A stretch of DNA of 64,000 nt. It comes from Ischnura elegans. Its lineage: Eukaryota; Arthropoda; Insecta; Odonata; Coenagrionidae. A program made the position numbers and the translations under genes. Numbering within the stretch: the first letter of the stretch is position 1; each line of letters opens with the position of its first letter. This document shows, piece by piece, positions 10,023 to 44,600 of the stretch. The notes below the pieces were generated by a model that saw nothing but the letters and a program-made list of their open reading frames with translations, was not told the DNA's origin and ran no database searches. The stretch spans positions 49,139,111 through 49,203,110 of the forward strand of contig NC_060247.1 of assembly GCF_921293095.1 (NCBI RefSeq). Reading direction: 5' to 3'.

Positions 10023-10174
10023 TATATTTAAGTAAATGAAAGATCGTAGCACTTTTCCACAAGAACTTTTAATGCGTACAACGCGTTTCGGCTCACTGAG
10101 CCTCTTGTACCAGATGTACGCATTAAAAATTCTTGTGGAAAAGTGCTACGATCTTTCATTCACTTAAATATGTC
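10023..10174. repeat. Foldback element, 58-bp arms
   Basis: Arms 10023-10080 and 10116-10174 are inverse copies (AAAGATCGTAGCACTTTTCC and GGAAAAGTGCTACGATCTTT) around a loop with GCGTTTCGGCTCACTGAGCC. Nearly perfect pairing. Confidence 0.85.
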
Positions 10175-11679
10175 TAACTTCCACCAATTGAAGCCTGAAT
10201 CTGTTGAACTTATCCAAAATGTATAATTCAGTTATCAAAAGATATTGACATAACTTTAAGAGCAGTGAAAAGAAAGCAAAAATGTAAATAAATCCATGCC
10301 GCAATTTCACTGCCGCATTGAAAATTCAGGCGGGCAGCAAAAACACGCTCTCTTGTAAATTGAAAAACAATTGACTACTGTCGCTGCTAAACACAAAATT
10401 CACTATCGGTAGACGATCAGGCTGTTGTTTTATTAATTGAGGCAACGCGACTACTATTAGTCTTAAACGGTGCGTACAAAAAACAACTCGGAGATGATTT
10501 CAGAATCGGCTCGATATTTAGGGTATCCGAGTGCGGTTCCAACCCGTTTATGGACAGCGTTCCCGTCGCTGCAAGCCGAGAGCGCTCCCACCAATAGTCG
10601 TTTCGACCTTGTATCGCGAATTTTTATGGATGCAAATTAAGAAGCGGATGGTACCCGCATGGTACTGCAGTCGACGCTTCACCTTAATTCGAGCCTTCAA
10701 CTCGGAAGAAAGGACGTGAAGGAGCAAAAAATAAAAACATGCCTACTTTCTATGGGCACTATAAAAAAAAAGAGGGATCGAGATAAACTGAGCTAAGTAA
10801 GCATGAAAGGGGACTTGAATAACATCATTTCCTCGTTGTGGATGATAAATCCGGTCAAGTGTGCAGAAATACTGGTGCGGAGACAAAGGATTACTTGGCC
10901 AAGGGACTAAAAACCCCTGTCTGAAGGAAGAGGCATTTGAGAGGGAGTGCGGGTTGAAGGGGAAGAGGAGAATAGAACATAAGGGAGTTTTTCAATGCAT
11001 TGTCGTCAGACGCCAGTGTTTGAATTACAATCGCCGCGGGAGGTGATTCGCACGGGAAATGAGAAGGATTAGCGGCAGAGAGTGAATGAGGATCGGTGGA
11101 GGAAGCGAATGAAGAGTTCAGCCGGCATATATTAAGTGGCGAGCCGCAAAAAACGTAGATGTCTCCATGGAGAGCCAACAATCGGAATGAAAGGCTAGAG
11201 AAAAAAAAATAAGAACAATTTTTCTTAATCGACTGGACCGCTCTATTCATAGATTTAATTGCCTTTCCCTTTACATATTTTTTCATTGTGGATCCAGCTT
11301 CAATCGATGCGGACAGAAGAAATAAATCTGGTGGCCAGATGAATGCCATCCGGTTATTAGCCAAGCGGAGGAAAGTAATACTGTGCTTCTAAATCGTTAG
11401 AAGCTAAATAGATTTTGCTATGCTTCATTTTTATAACCGCAGATATCTTATAAAAATGACATCACTAATTGGAAATATAAATATATCGACTCCTGAGCTA
11501 ATAAAAGGTAGAAATAAACCACTATCAGTCACATAAACTAAGAAAAATTTTAACGACTGCGTCTTATCTCACTTGTTACTTTAACTATCCAGTAACCAAT
11601 ACCTAACCTTTATCTATAATTAATAGAATCGTGCGTGACTTGGTGGAAATTCTTTATCGTGAGATTTGAAAGAATTAAA
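10175..11679. other. No secure gene
   Basis: A minus-strand frame of 157 codons at 10891-11364 has no recognisable domain, and its Phe/Ser/Leu-rich composition looks spurious. Nothing else stands out. Confidence 0.45.
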
Positions 11680-11830
11680 ACTTTCCTTTTTCCGAATGGT
11701 GATTTACATTGTCCGACCATGGTTTCGTTACAGCGTAACATTTTCAAGTTTTCCACTTCATTGAAAATGTTACGCTGTAACGAAACAATAGTCAGACAAA
11801 ACAAATCACCACGTGGAAAAATCAAAGTTT
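11680..11830. repeat. Foldback element, about 65-bp arms
   Basis: Inverted arms share GTTTCGTTACAGCGTAACAT and GGTGATTT, and meet in a loop of about 14 bp. The arms differ by a few substitutions and one small indel. Confidence 0.85.
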
Positions 11831-12544
11831 ATTATTCTTCCAACTCCAAACCTTTATCATTCGATGTTATTCGATGGAAGAATCTCTCCCCGTATAACCA
11901 TTAATTTAAGTTACCTCAAGACCAGTGGAACACAAAATACGACCTCAAATAAAAGACTGGTGGCATTTTCAAACAGTCATCACTATGGGGTCCCAGATTG
12001 TACACCCGGTTGAAGCCTTGAACAACCCCAAACGAAAATGATCATGGCTCAAAATGGCCCGAGGCAAGGAACTAGCTTATCCACCCTGAAAGCGTGGTAT
12101 GCATAGCAGCGTTAATGTATATGCTTGATCACTTGACCTAGTGAAAATATATAGGGGATAAACCTAAATTGCAGCTGAATACAATTAATGGAAATGCTGA
12201 AATAAAAATATAGGAACGAGCATTACATCTTTATAAGCCTAATAATGTCGTAAATACTTAAAGCAAGGCATTTGTAAAATTATTCCACAATATTGCACGC
12301 ATTAGGCTTAGTTGGAATGATCTCTATCCCCTACTATTCAAATCAAGATTCGTATCGAAGTGGTGATCAACCTTCAAAAAGAAAAAGTAGAAAAAACGTA
12401 CGCAACTCCAGTTTTGAATTTTCCTCTAGAAGTATTATTTTACTTGAATAAAATAATAATGGAGATAAAATAATTATGTATGTATACCAATGCATCGGCC
12501 CCGAATCTAACGACATTATGTATGATCTTAGGTTTTCCCGGCGT

Positions 12545-12775
12545 ATTAGTTTCAGAAGAGTTTCTCGGGTTTTCCACCGGTCAATGTCGTCCGTGTCTCC
12601 CGACGTTTCGATCCGCGACTTGCTGATCATCCTCAGGGGATCTTCCGAAAATTAGGGTATCCGAGTTTCATTAGGAAGATCCCCTGAGGATGATCAGCAA
12701 GTCGCGGATCGAAACGTCGGGAGACATGGACGACATCAACCGGTGGAAAACCCGAGAAATTTTTCTGAAACTAAA
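12545..12775. repeat. Foldback element, about 105-bp arms
   Basis: An almost perfect inverted repeat. Each arm carries GAAACGTCGGGAGACA, GATGATCAGCAAGTCGCGGA and CCGGTGGAAAACCCGAGAAA (or inverse) around a short unpaired centre at 12645-12680. It shares GAAACGTCGG and CTCGGG ends with the element at 2143-2578. Confidence 0.9.
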
Positions 12776-28084: not shown

Positions 28085-28253
28085 AATGGATATAGGGCCG
28101 GCCCTAGCAGGTGCGGGGCTAGGGGCGAACCGTCAGTGCGGGGTCCTTCACTTAAAATATTAAACTCTATACCCCATCTACAAACTCGAGCATTTTGAAT
28201 CCCTACCACTCTCTGGCTAAGTATGTGTTCCCCTCCCAAATTCAGACTTCGTA

Positions 28254-28919
28254 ATAGGGTAGTTTACTTCATCAAAGAAAACAAAAGGCAATAATTGCGA
28301 TTCGTTACCCACCATTAGTGTATTCATAATATACAAATTATTTCGTTTTATAAATGCCGGTGTAGACGAATGGCAATGGTCCATTTTTATCCTCATTTGA
28401 AAAGGGCCAGATTGGCGCCCATGCGATGCCACTCCACGTGACGTCACAGGGACCTAGTTTCTATAGGAGAAGATAGGAGTTATACGTCGTCTGAGGTTAC
28501 CAATGCATGCATGAGGCGCAGAGCTCAGGGAAACATGTCTTAATAATCACTTATTAAAACTGGCTAAGGTCGGAAAGTTTTCCTCGTTTGATAAGGTATT
28601 AATAATCCTTATTTAAGCCAAGCGCTACCAGGCGGCAGGGCACTAGGCTACCCGCTGGCAGCCTGCGACGTATCAGCGCTAAGCCTCGCCTCAAGGTCAC
28701 CTCACCGGGCGGAGGGGGAACCAGAAATACGACGTACGGAGAGATTTCCCATCATTCCTACTAACGCGTCGCGTTTTCGCGCGCTTGAAAATTTTCACTT
28801 TTCATTTAATCGCGAAAAATAGATATTATCATTTAAAAATCTAAAAGCGTGAAATACGTACTCCAGGTGTAATAATCTTTCGATTAAGGCAATAAAAAAA
28901 TAATAGGAAACCACCCTAT
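28254..28919 (-). mobile_element. 666-bp MITE family, copy 2 (inverted)
   Basis: Same length as copy 1 and nearly identical to it in reverse, so both moved recently. Flanks read GTA...TAC; the local target is TAATTA. It lies within the left half of the hAT-type element. Confidence 0.93.
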
Positions 28920-29117
28920 TACGCCGTTATGATACCATCACGCAGTTGAGTTCAAAATAGTATAATACAAATAAAATTTATAATTATATTTCTTCATAAA
29001 ATTATAACGTAAAATAAACATAAAAATTGCGTTTTCAAAACTATCGTATATTTGAATTTTTTTCACGAACGCGGGGCCCCCCTAAACGCGGGGCCCGGGG
29101 CGGTCGCCCCGCCCTAA

Positions 29118-32100
29118 GGCCTCGGGTACGATACGAGCGGCGAGCGGCGGGCGGCGAGCGGCAAGCGGCGTGAGCGGCGCCGCTATGATATCGGACCACA
29201 GTTAGTTGCGTGTAAATCTATTGAGGGTGGGTACGATATGTTTGAGCGGCGAGCGACAGTGAGCGGCGCCGCCCAGTGCCGCTCATGATTCCAAGTCCAG
29301 ACCGATTTCTTTTCCACTGCCGCTCGCCGCTCAGTAGATGGATCCTTCAATGTAGTTGAAAATGTCAGCGTAGAAACATCAAAGTGATGAGAATACGGCC
29401 AAACAAAGGAAGACTGAAGTAAAACTAAGTAATATACTAATAGAAGTTTTAACTAGTGAGGTGCAGTCCAGTGTATTTATGTGGAATGATCAACATTTTA
29501 TTATAGTGTTCTACCGATTAAGGTAGGTTTCCATGGAGTACTATAGAAGTAATCTGGGAGCCTCCCTTTCCTTCCAACACTGACTTTTTCAATACAATGT
29601 AAAGGAACACATACGAGTTAATATCTTTGCGTTAATGTCTAACGAGTTTGCATGAATGATTTTTGTGGACCGGAACGAAACATTTACGAATGTATGAAAC
29701 AAATTAGAACAGGTTCTATTTTCTGTGCATTCACTCGCACAAGTTGGGTGGTAACACGGTGCATTTTGGCGATCATTCTCGCGTTCATACATTTAGACAT
29801 TAACCCGTACGTGTTAATGTACCGTGTTAACAGGCCTTAAGGCCACTGTAACTCCCTTTCAATATTCTAAAAATCTTATTCTCCTCCTTCCTCGTTTCCC
29901 TATTAATCTTAATCCTCATCCCATACTCCTCGCAACGCTCGTATAACGCATCCACTAAAGCCTGAAGCCCCCTCGCTGACTGGCTAATCAACGCCTGATC
30001 ATCCGCGAATCTCACTGATTTGAACATCATTCCTCCCACTTTTATCCCAGCTTCTAACTCATCCCACGCTTCCCTTACCATCTCTTCAGCGTACACGTTA
30101 AAGAGCAGCGGCGATATAGGACAGCCTTGCCTCACTCCTCGGCCAATGCTTGCCCACCCAGATTCTCCGTCCGCTACCCTCACTTGTGCAGTCTGGGCCA
30201 TATACAGATTACGAATGAGTCGCCTATCCATCCAATCTACACCTATTCTCTTGAGAATGTTCATTAACTTTATCCAGTTCACCCTATCAAATGGTCCTCT
30301 CCACGAGGAACCTCATTATTGCTATTGCATCACGAGTTGACTTCCCTTCTCTAAAACCAAACTGATCTTCGCCCAAATACTCGTTTGCCCTCGCCTCCTC
30401 AGTACCACTTTCGCTGCATACGATATTAGGCTAATAGTCCTATAATCTCTGCATCCCACAGGTTTCGTCTTTTTCAGTAGCAGAATTATAACCGTCTTCA
30501 CAAAATCCTCCGGCAAACATTCCTCCTCATAGATCCTCCGTACTAGTTCGAAAAATATTCTTACTATCCTTCCCTAGATTCTTCAGATGCTCACACAGGA
30601 TATATTGTCCACGCCCACTGCTTTCCTGGCCTTCATATCACGAAGGGATCTCTTGATTTCCGCATCGAAGATACTCGGCCAAAGATTATCCTCCTCCACT
30701 GCACTTTCCTCATCAAAAATCAATTTCTCCGGCCTGTTCCTTACTTCATACAGATCCTCCACGTATTCCCTCCATCTACTCTGTACCTCTTCGCGCTCGG
30801 TTAGCATCCTTCCATCTTTAGCCTTAATTTTGGACACGGCTTATCCTCTTTTGCTGCTCGATAGCGACTTAACTTTTTAGCGACCATTTTTTTACCGACC
30901 CCGGCGTACAACCCGCGCCTACTTCTCCATCCTTCTGGAACTTTTCCGTTTCCTCACACTGTCTTTTCCACCAAGCCTCCCTTGCCCTCTTAGTTTCACG
31001 TCGTAATCGATTAATTAGTTCCTTATACATTCTTTTGCCCTACTCTGTGTCCACTTTCTTCCACTTCCTTCTCTCCTCCATCTCTTTTACCACTGCCTCC
31101 GTAACCCAAGGCTTCTTTATCCTTTTGCTGTCAATGTAGCCAATTGACTTCTCCGCCGATTTGACTATTCCCGTTTTAATATTATCCCACCCTTCCTCTA
31201 CAGTCTGTGTACTTCTAATCTTCCGGGTACTATTGCCCACTAATTCCTGATATTCCTTCCTCATAGTCCCCTTCAGCACTTCTATATTCCATTTCCTCGC
31301 CTTCCTAACTTTAATTAGCCTTTTGAATCTTATGTTGCATTTCATGAGCGCTGGGTTGTGGTCTGAATCTGAATCCGAATCCGCGGCAGGGAAGCTGCGG
31401 GAGTTTTTCACACTATTCCTATACCTCTGTCTTACCATGACATAGTCAATCCCCCTACATCCCCTGGACTTTTCTATATGTACCTTTGCCCTTTATGATG
31501 AGTGCTGTTTACGGGGAAGTTAGAAATAAATAAATGGCGGAAGGAACCTATGTAAAATTAAAAAAATAATAAATTTGTAGAACCTCTGGTTATCCAATAT
31601 CCTATTGAGTACATGGGGAAGAACATGTGGTAAATGTGTAACAGATATGAGTAATCTATAAGTCAAAGTAGAACTGAGGGTATGATACGCATTTTTAAAA
31701 AGCTAGAAGTTCTCGTAGAAATACCCAGTTAAGACGGTCAAAGGGTCCGCTCCGCGGTGTCATAAAACGACTGTTTTCGCAGTAGAATCCTGGGGGTCAG
31801 GGATCGGAGAGAAAAGAACGTATGAGTCTCAGCTGGTGTCTTTCTGGTAGGTATTTTGGTCTGAGTCCCAGGAAAACAACTCACTTTTTCGAGGTTTGAA
31901 CACTTTTAATAGAAGCATGGTCTTCGATCGTATCCAAAGAAAACGAAATGAACTTCAATGAAACGTGCACTTACCTCGCCTGAAAAACCTCCACTGTATT
32001 CACCATAGACCATTTAAGAATCGGTATATTGAAGCAAAACATAAAAACGGTGAATGGTGAGCATTAAAACCCATACAGTTTCAATAACCTTACCGCGTCG

Positions 32101-32777
32101 CGGCTAATCCAACTCCCGACGCGCGGAGACGAACCCTGCCGCGCGATCGAAAAATCAATGTAATTTCCGGCGTCGCAAACTTATTTCACAGATAACTGCA
32201 TAATCACCTCAAGAAATCTTCAAAAAATGCTCTCATATAAGTTACTCCGCGTGACTTTGCCGTCAACCCATTTTAAACTCTACCTAAATATGAAATTCTG
32301 TCGAAAAACAGTATCCGCCATTTTGTAACGGCACGGTAAGAATTAATCGATAATATTCTTTCAGATTACGGAAAATTAAAGAAAAAACACCATGCCAACA
32401 GATTATGTGGTTTTTTATTCCGCAAGAATCCACCTATAACTTCACCATCTACTTACTTTAGAAGATTTTCAGAGAAAATTGAAGACGGGCGTTTTCATGG
32501 AAATTTTCTCACGTTTGAGCATCTGTATCTCAGTAAAGGGTGGAATCTTTGTCAAATAAAGTACAGATCCATAAATTTCAATCATTTTTGAGTATGCCTG
32601 CGAAGTTTCAAGTTTATAGCTCAAAAAAAGTAAATTTGTAATTTTGCCCGGCTTTTTCCGATTTCCGCCCACTGCAGAGCGGTTAGAAAATTGCCGCTCG
32701 TATTGTAGCCACTACTGCCGCTCACGTGCCGCTCAGGTTGCCGCTCGCCGCCCGCCGCTCGTATCGTAACCGAGGCC
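29118..32777. mobile_element. 3.66-kb Harbinger-like element, no transposase
   Basis: Long TIRs begin GGCCTCGGGTACGATACGAG and GGCCTCGGTTACGATACGAG, followed by iterated GAGCGGC/GGCGGC units at both ends (29130-29180, 29240-29335, 32690-32765). Flanks are TAA (29115-29117, 32778-32780), the 3-bp TWA duplication typical of PIF/Harbinger. The interior keeps no recognisable transposase. It carries a LINE fragment at about 29827-31490; the rest is AT-rich. Confidence 0.75.
29827..31490 (-). pseudogene. Non-LTR retrotransposon fragment (EN end and RT), broken
   Basis: Read on the minus strand: the end of an apurinic endonuclease domain (GCRGIDYVMVRQRYRN, then DSDHNPALMKCNIRFKRL, the SDH motif), a linker region (KPWVTEAVVKEMEERRKWKK), then reverse transcriptase blocks. 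These are VGVDNISCV, FVKTVIILLLKK, CRDYRTISLISYAAKV, IGRGVRQGCPISPLLFNVYA and VRFADDQALISQS, which is the catalytic F-A-D-D box. It is split over four frames by indels and stops, and the endonuclease N-terminus is missing. The catalytic Asp pair is intact, but the element is dead. Confidence 0.9.
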
Positions 32778-32799
32778 TAAGGCCGGCCCTGAATGGATA

Positions 32800-41666: not shown

Positions 41667-44600
41667 CTGGAAAGAAAAATTTAACTATTTTAGAAAATAA
41701 CAAGACTTGATTAAGTCAACAATCTTTTAAGCATTGCAAAATTTACAAACTACCGGTGATGCTGGATTTGAATGAACACAGGGGAAAAAAAGATATTTAT
41801 TTCCATTACAAAATTATAGAGTAAGTTCATTTAAATGAGTATGTAATGCTAATCACAAGACCACCACTGCAAGAGAATGGTGATGCACTAATGATTTTAT
41901 TAAAGACAGGCAAATTAAAACATTCGGTACAATAATGTGTGATGTTTACTTGACATCATGTTCATTTTGACATCACATAAAATGGCTAGATGGATGCCGG
42001 CCATATTTTTTTATATACAGTGCCCCCACTGATCAGATTCATGTTGTGCTTGTTTTTTATGGTATCTACATGAAAAAAAGTCATTGTCTTGATATATAAC
42101 TGTTAAGAAGTGGGTCTTCATTTTCTCATCTTACAAAGTGCAGCTGCAAGAGAAATTAGTTGATAAGAAAAATTAAACTATGTGCTGCAACAAGCATCAG
42201 TTAAACATATGACTTGTTAAATGAGGACTAACACTGAGTCCGATGTATAAAATTTTAGGTTTATTGGATTAAGGTGTTCCATTGATCATAGAAATCAGAA
42301 TTTGTATCCCACCATGAATGATGGCCTAATGAATACAATCTTGGAGTGCCAAGTAGATGGCAAGAATGGATAAGGGAGACCACAAATAACATATTTCGAA
42401 CACGTGAAAAAGAATGTGAAAGAGAAGAAACATGTAGTTGTGAAAAGATTTGCTGACGGGAGAATTGAGTAGAGAGCTGCATCAAACCAATCAAGAGGAC
42501 TCTTGACAGTGATGAGGATAGTTACAACATTATAACAACAGGTGTTATAACTACCCCTATGAAAAAATTGTATACACCTGTATAAAATTTGTATACATTC
42601 TTATACAATTGCCATGACAATGCATAAGAATGTATACAAATTTTATACAGGTTTATACAATTTTTTAATACGGGTATGTGCAAGTGATTTAAATTAAAAA
42701 TCCTAGTTTACTTGCAAATCAAAGGTCACATTTAAGCTCACAGGAAAAATTTGAGTAGCAGAACATGCTCATGTTTGCCACAAATGGTAGTTTTTTAAAT
42801 GAAGGATTGACAAGTATCCATCAAATAAGTATTGATAATCATGTACTGAAAATAATTACATGCGAAGACTTTTCTTGCTGGTTCGAGTTATATTTAGCAA
42901 GTAAATTATCAAAAATAAATATTAGAGATGTGCGAATAGTATCTCCGAATACTCGAACACCTCGAAGACTAGAAAGTATTCGATATTCGAGATCTTGAAT
43001 AATAGGGTGGTTTCCTATTATTCTTTTATTGCCGAAATCGAAAGATTATTACTCCTGGAGTACGTATTTCACGCTTTTAGATTTCTAAATGACGATATCT
43101 ATTTTTCGCGATTAAATGAAAAGTGAACATTTTCAAGAGCCCGAAAACGCGACGCATAATTATGAATGCCGGGAAATTTCTCCGTGTGACGTATTTCTGG
43201 TTCCCGCTGCCGCCCTGTGAGGTGACCTTGAGGCGAGGCTTAGCGCTGATACGACGCAGGCTGCTAGCGGGTAGCTGAGTACCCTGCTGGCTGGTAGCGC
43301 TTGGCTTAAATAAGGATTATTAATACCTTATCAAACGAAGAAAACTTTCCGACTTTAGCCAGTTTTAATAAGTGATTATTAAGACATGTTTCCCTGAACT
43401 CTGCGCCTCATGCATGCATTGGTAACCTCAGACGATGTATAACTCCTATCCTCTCATGTAGAAACTAGGTCCCTGTGACGTCACGTGGAGTGGCATCGCA
43501 TGTGCCCCAATCTGGCCCTTTTCAAATGAGGATAAAAATGGACCATTGCCGTTCGTCTAAACCGGTATTTCTAAAATGAAATAATTTGTATATTATGAAT
43601 ACACTAATGATGGGTAACGAATCGCAATCAATGCCTTTCGTTTTCTTTGATGAAGGAAACTACCCTATTATGGTAAAAGTACGACCTCGAATACTTTGAA
43701 TTTCACACCATACACTGTCACACGCATGTCGTTGATAGTTGACTCTGAAACAATGTAGAGGACTCTAGTCGTTTAATGTTGCAGTGCCATTTTAGGCAAG
43801 TTGACAAACTACATCAAATTCGTGGAAAAGAGTGGTGAACAGATATTGCTCGACATGGGGAACCGAAAATGATCGGGGGAAAAATCCAAAATTGAACGTT
43901 TAGTATGCTTTGCGCATTTCTAGTATTCGATGCATTCCAGATTTGAGATATTTGAATATTTGAGGCATAGGCGGATCCAGGGGGGGGGGCACGTGCCCCC
44001 CCCAGACCCTCAAAAATATGCATGATTATTAATACGGTCCCATTATCATTGCGTCCGTTTTGTATTACGAGGTATACTTGTGCCCCCCCCTGAACAAAAT
44101 CCTGGATACGGCCTTTCTTGTGCCCCTCCCAGAAAAAAATCCTGGATCCGCCCCTGATTTGAGGTATGATTTAATATTAGAGTCAGAGAAATCTGCTATT
44201 CAACCCATCTCTTGTTTAAACATATAAACGTGCAATACCGCTTTGACACACTCCATTTTCACAGCAATTGATCACTTTAAATTTCACTTCTAGGTTTATG
44301 CTTTTCCGTGATAGTTTCTTGATTTTTCTACCTGTATTCCTATTTTTTGTCCTTGTTCTCTAGGTTTGTACTCTGTATAGCTCTATCGAAATCACCTACT
44401 GCTGGGCAACTGCTGCACTGTATTCCTGAGATGCAGAGGGCCTAAGACTGCTGGGAGGGAATGAAGCCATTGCGTTTGACTCTCTAGTGGACCCTTCTAC
44501 GTATTGATGCTATTCATTCGGAACTCGGGCACCGCTCCATTTCTACCCTGTGAATACCGCTGGCCTTGAAGGCTTGAGGCATTGACCCTCTACGTTGAAG

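Follow-up and report, generated by a model that had tools for sequence, protein, structure and literature searches.

Positions 28085-32799 of a 64,000-nucleotide stretch of the genome of the odonate Ischnura elegans (NC_060247.1, 49,139,111 to 49,203,110; the whole stretch is hereafter the window) hold a nest of six transposable elements at four nesting levels. A hAT-type miniature inverted-repeat transposable element (MITE) contains a 664-bp MITE and a TAA-flanked, PIF/Harbinger-like element, here called the composite, and the composite in turn carries a dead, 5'-truncated long interspersed nuclear element (LINE), a 235-bp MITE within that LINE, and a single Transib-like end. The nest is ordinary in kind, and its interest lies in the mobile inner nest: very probably, the inner stack was put together at another place and then travelled, dead LINE included, as a single PIF/Harbinger-like unit. 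All three target repeats or junctions named in a preliminary description of this DNA are present in the sequence, and the 3.66-kb TAA-flanked insert described there measures 3660 bp with TAA on both sides. Its four layers were an undercount, the Transib-like piece and the 235-bp MITE having been overlooked, and the idea that each layer has termini of its own found no support.

The evidence for a mobile stack comes from its other copies in the genome (1.72 Gb, 110 contigs searched). A query with the composite's left arm gave 170 candidates, of which the best 40 were scored and 29 other loci read. No hAT match was found in the 1.5-kb flanks of these 29 loci, so that a single repeated element of 4.7 kb, the outcome by which the preliminary description would have fallen, is excluded. 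The LINE body lies within the fetched 1.5 kb at 20 of the 29 and is not in that stretch at L042, L051, L055, L062, L063 and L067-L070; the LINE of L062 was located later by a LINE query, at L055 a LINE piece lies some distance away in the opposite orientation, and L051 is without most of the LINE. All eight composite loci that were extended contain both the LINE and the Transib-like piece, at ~92-96% by piece, with internal duplications in L049 and L053 and a deletion in L043. For seven of these the fetched stretch includes the right end; they measure 3379 to 4244 bp and are bounded by TAA or TTA at either end. Adding 14 further end pairs brings the number of other copies to 21, of which 16 lie between equal TAA or TTA repeats, besides the TAA of the window copy (L113, for which no left end of its own was read, was left out of this count).

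The same association is seen from the side of the LINE. A 1.1-kb LINE query gave 3301 candidates, of which the best 40 were scored. Each of the 27 places whose main piece reaches 90% identity or above has a composite arm match within 6 kb (21 of them with both arms), and none of the 12 places with a main piece below 90% is near composite arms. Both the LINE-place and the arm lists hold best matches only, and the co-location speaks for those. This tally omits five secondary LINE pieces. Three (94-95%) come from composite loci, another matches at 82%, and the last, 272 bp long at 91%, belongs to a free LINE at C9:86104171 whose main piece stands at 84%. Moreover, stops after VDTE, before AVSKIKA and after KGSQLV.Q are common to all nine composites read, and a stop before GRRVRIFF occurs in eight of them; the three common stops mean that the LINE was dead before those copies spread. 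The preliminary description was right that a broken LINE sits inside a Harbinger-like element, which is also the picture expected had the LINE entered that element at the window locus and broken there. But since every close LINE place adjoins composite arms and all nine composites have the same three stops, such a local insertion is extremely improbable, and the reading of the LINE as an event of this nest finds no support. A gene-bearing composite was also considered and ruled out, as none of the composites read has an intact reverse transcriptase frame.

A second way to account for the copies is segmental duplication instead of transposition. A right-arm query, with the best 40 of 1671 candidates scored, gave 28 whole or near-whole matches (window included) and 12 ending at 32674. 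Six same-strand matches ~63-76 kb apart at C19:23515578-23866181, together with the five of 21 composites that have no equal 3-bp repeats (L046, L051, L056, L061 and L065), are what duplication would produce. But TAA or TTA on both sides of 16 of 21 copies, with differing flanks and on many contigs, is not, nor is locus L060, where at 1897-2517 a composite sits at TTA within a 664-bp MITE, the converse pairing of the two families, and we regard duplication as the general explanation as unlikely in a high degree. Transposition of the stack as one unit is thus preferred, and several observations weigh against it. The C19 cluster at 23.5-23.9 Mb looks like tandem duplication, not transposition (a seventh right-arm match there, at 23448633, is on the opposite strand). 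The five copies without equal repeats count in the same direction, two of which (L056 and L061) have right ends set by matches ending 1 and 3 bases short, so that their repeats were possibly misread. The preliminary description had proposed looking for Harbinger-like copies lacking the LINE, and four such copies of 415-436 bp do exist, in which the left arm (to 29420) is joined to the right arm (from 32677) with ~19 bp between; equal 3-bp repeats were seen in none of the four as read, so these may be deletion products, and they represent either the invaded form or later deletion products. Furthermore, the LINE showed no target repeat, 29421-29497 and 31505-31534 have no assigned origin, and no partner transposase for the composite was found, no genome search for one having been made.

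The composite's own features resemble those of non-autonomous PIF/Harbinger elements, for which PMC4482050 gives 3-bp TWA target repeats. Its repeats are of this form, its terminal inverted repeats (TIRs; GGCCTCGG...CCGAGGCC) start with GG, where the first base is usually A or G, and they are well under 60 bp or little more. What sets it apart is its cargo: the dead LINE, the 235-bp MITE and the Transib-like end. Pfam searches of seven window frames returned only RVT_1 and one weak match, so that neither a DDE nor a Myb/SANT gene was found in the window copy.

The RVT_1 match (E 6.8e-17) belongs to the LINE, which also matches LINE-1 ORF2 (E 1.4e-11) and R2 in PDB and thus has a reverse transcriptase of the non-LTR (long terminal repeat) kind. 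L122 and L123, two free LINEs with a mutual identity of 95%, retain long open frames (441 + 555 aa and 566 + 452 aa); they set the 3' end of the composite's LINE near 29498 and its 5' truncation at 31504. Both read CACTGTAAGGCC without the 235-bp piece where the composite has 29603-29837 between two TAA; a third free copy, L121, stops short of this point. The 235-bp MITE has a partial copy in L023. Compared with L045, L049, L064 and L066, the window LINE is without ~510-520 bp at 29902-29909. The free copies have an N-terminal half that we take to be endonuclease-like, judged by eye from its motifs. The LINE is comparable to LINEs with an apurinic-type endonuclease in its reverse transcriptase and 5' truncation, and differs in being dead in all nine composites read.

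The remaining cargo resembles one end of a Transib element. Among the 12 right-arm matches ending at 32674, eight form four inverted pairs ~4.2 kb apart and four are single. In one pair, at L099, the TIRs are 1020 bp long with zero mismatches, have ends CACAGTG and are flanked by a CGACG repeat; the other three pairs have the 5-bp repeats CGTCG, CGCAC and CACCG, so that all four have one. For Transib, PMC7204232 describes TIRs starting CAC and 5 bp as the predominant repeat length. The 5-bp repeats and the TIR start, CACAGTGGGCGG, agree with this. As for a RAG1-like transposase, two L099 frames have low-scoring, collinear matches to PDB entry 6pqn (E 0.24 and 0.0038), with nothing convincing in Pfam. 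We take this entry to be a Transib transposase. L099 1239-5739 is a ~4.5-kb Transib-like element with reading frames that look broken, and it is probably recent, because its TIRs are identical throughout their 1020 bp. Window positions 31535-32674 correspond to one L099-type end at 91%. The likeness to Transib lies in the CACAGTG start and the 5-bp repeats, and possibly in the weak collinear 6pqn match, whereas the ~1-kb TIRs of L099 and the single end kept by the composite are points of difference.

Table 1. Components of the nest, in order along the window.
Feature	Position	Strand	Remark
Left hAT 8-bp target repeat AATGGATA	28085..28092	.	exact repeats in 28/39 other copies
hAT MITE, left part	28093..28254	+	first base T; C in most other copies
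664-bp MITE TAGGGTAG...CCACCCTA between AA / TT	28255..28918	+	ISL2EU-like (AT repeat) or repeat-free
hAT MITE, middle part, last bases CCCTAA	28919..29117	+	
Left TAA repeat of composite	29115..29117	.	
PIF/Harbinger-like composite, 3660 bp, very probably unit-mobile	29118..32777	.	
Composite left arm, TIR GGCCTCGGGTACGATACGAGCGG	29118..29420	+	also in LINE-free 415-436-bp copies
77 bp between left arm and LINE 3' end	29421..29497	.	no L099 match
LINE, 3' end part	29498..29602	-	90-91% to free LINEs L122, L123
235-bp MITE within LINE at TAA	29603..29837	.	TAA repeats 29600-29602, 29838-29840
LINE, dead, 5'-truncated	29838..31504	-	
30-bp stretch between LINE and Transib-like end	31505..31534	.	
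Transib-like end: single long TIR + ~130 bp interior	31535..32674	.	91% to L099
Composite right arm, TIR ...CCGAGGCC	32677..32777	+	
Right TAA repeat of composite	32778..32780	.	
hAT MITE, final 11 bases	32781..32791	+	
Right hAT 8-bp target repeat AATGGATA	32792..32799	.	

The outermost layer has hAT-like ends, TAGGGCCGGCC and GGCCGGCCCTG, directly inside the exact AATGGATA repeats, and an 8-bp match at one given end pair has a chance of ~2e-5 from base composition. Removing the 3660-bp element leaves CCCTAAGGCC, and removing the inserts restores a core of 372 bp, close to the ~370 bp first described. The left 157 bases, used as the query, gave 850 first-look candidates, and the best 40 that were scored include, besides the window copy, 39 others with 98-99% identity. 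The 8-bp repeats of these 39 are exact in 28 and have one mismatch in six (34 at one or none), two mismatches in one and four in another, and three copies have no right end within reach; the window's 8-bp repeat is not due to chance, the alternative named in the preliminary description. Copies with no more than one repeat mismatch vary in length between 263 and 1374 bp; the family therefore comprises several related forms. Such 8-bp repeats, the short TIR CAGGGCCGGCC and many copies of varying inner length are shared with non-autonomous members of the hAT superfamily; a partner transposase was not identified, no search for it having been made. At the position of the 664-bp MITE, the insert is absent from 38 of the 39 other copies, 35 of which read TAATTA (L010, L014 and L020 have altered bases), and the exact empty site occurs 323 times in the genome, compared with 0 for the backward control. 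The genome copies thus uphold the outer junctions. The order first proposed, with hAT first and the MITE and TAA-flanked element later, is supported as well.

The inner MITE measures 664 bp (28255-28918), or 662 bp if AT is counted as a repeat, and not the 666 bp first given; its delimitation is supported by three window copies, genome copies, empty sites and flanks. The best 40 of 4288 candidates include 39 other copies at 99-100%, and the family is young, to judge by its sequences. Two further copies lie on the minus strand of the window at 109-787 and 43000-43670, with 99.3% and 92.7% identity to the nested copy. The empty site CGTAATTACG compared with the filled CGTAAT[AGGG..CCCT]ATTACG allows a target repeat of at most a 2-bp AT. 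A TA repeat as in Tc1/mariner was ruled out, because TA duplication of the empty CGTAATTACG cannot yield the filled site. In an AATT target, an AT repeat (A/AT/T) and no repeat look identical; AATT is found in all 24 parsed copies, which have AA and TT outside TAGGG..CCCTA and variable third bases on both sides, and the empty site is TAATTA. L028, outside these 24 and read separately, has AAT on the left and ATT on the right, and in the diverged copy L021 the left flank reads CA, compatible with both readings.

For ISL2EU, PMC4482050 describes the target A/AT/T with a 2-bp AT repeat and TIRs that usually start GG, and for Spy, PMC4482050 and PMC11304231 give the target AAATTT and no target repeat. 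The 664-bp MITE resembles non-autonomous ISL2EU elements (PHIS superfamily) in its AATT target and its AT repeat of at most 2 bp, and differs in that its TIR would start AGGG, or TAGGG, and not GG. Given this start, and that GG is only usual, the MITE is called ISL2EU-like and not placed in ISL2EU. It could instead integrate between AA and TT without target duplication, in the manner of Spy (PHIS superfamily) with a shorter target of four bases. Such insertion would account for AA/TAGGG..CCCTA/TT in 24 of 24 copies and for the empty TAATTA, and the AT reading leaves AG as the first bases where ISL2EU TIRs usually have GG (PMC4482050). But the target described for Spy is AAATTT (PMC4482050, PMC11304231), whereas the third bases vary here, and A/AT/T is the target described for ISL2EU. 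The repeat-free insertion is therefore somewhat unlikely, and the ISL2EU-like assignment fits better.

The same hAT site has been filled more than once. L030, the one exception among the 39 hAT copies, has a member of the 664-bp family at exactly the window's site in opposite orientation. A 23-base junction pattern gave 171 matches at up to three mismatches, with three exact ones (window, L030 and L120) and no single-mismatch one; those listed with two or three mismatches have altered flanks. In L120, the MITE is reversed within a hAT copy that has a differing right-hand sequence and its own exact 8-bp repeats. Same-site insertion in three hAT copies, one forward and two reversed, is not claimed as a hot spot given the 323 exact empty sites; base composition leads to a rough expectation of 0.09 filled sites for 4288 MITE copies and 1.0 for 46,000, the latter number being an extrapolation from five copies in ~190 kb.

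These junctions order much of the history. The hAT element preceded both the 664-bp MITE and the composite, the cargo was in place before the composite spread, and the LINE was present before its 235-bp MITE. Either order is possible for the entry of the 664-bp MITE and the composite into hAT, and for the acquisition of the Transib-like piece and the LINE. The sequences directly show the termini, the repeats, the empty sites, the cargo common to the composites and the dead LINE common to them. We infer the transposases involved, their action in trans, and the order of cargo gathering save that of the LINE and its MITE. Elsewhere and earlier, a Harbinger-like element would have acquired a Transib-like end and a 5'-truncated LINE, which would then have received the 235-bp MITE while stops and deletions built up. 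With the outer TIRs intact, a Harbinger-type transposase acting in trans could still have cut and pasted the whole 3.4-4.2-kb stack, which would thus have arrived at no fewer than 17 places flanked by equal TAA or TTA repeats. At the window locus, a non-autonomous hAT element inserted at AATGGATA; later the 664-bp MITE entered an AATT site of it, and the composite, very probably ready-made, entered a TAA eleven bases before the right end of the hAT element.

Dating by divergence, as first suggested, yields bounds only: mean divergence is 0.3% for 21 other MITE copies, 0.8% for 39 hAT left ends and 3.8% for 22 composite left arms, all low bounds, as the searches give the most similar copies first. 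Dropped from these figures were L050, L055, L059 and L060, with partly matched left arms, and the short L068-L070. Since the left arms are 3.8% apart and the MITE and hAT copies less than 1%, the composite family, within the limits of this best-first sampling, seems to predate its entry into the window's hAT copy. Among 785 bp of the window's composite arm, 17 changes occur in that copy alone, which counts against a young locus; these changes are taken to predate the arrival.

Elsewhere in the window, four more long self-inverted repeats (10024-10171, 11663-11846, 12546-12774 and 42552-42676; 78-90% over 126-232 bp) look like fold-back MITEs. Repeat pairs at 79-90% are 3958-4259/27198-27496, 20489-20846/36155-36510, 36805-37001/43964-44158 and 7061-7274/7299-7512. 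Rfam and tRNA scans of the window gave no matches, nor did scans of viral and bacterial collections with the TIR patterns and the reverse transcriptase.

Among the papers listed by searches on nested MITE, hAT and Harbinger elements and on mobile nests, none matches this case by title and abstract. Non-autonomous elements that carry other elements are a known kind, and the composite is a clear further case. Nests are usually taken as local history, and here part of the nest would have been imported; as the inner stack was probably assembled elsewhere and moved as a unit, a chronology of families based on this nest would put the LINE in the wrong place. A DNA element may thus spread a dead LINE and a Transib-like end as long as its own ends remain intact. 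Finally, the 664-bp MITE is young and abundant, and as the hAT copies supply hundreds of empty sites, it lends itself to a clean natural test of insertion targeted to AATT.

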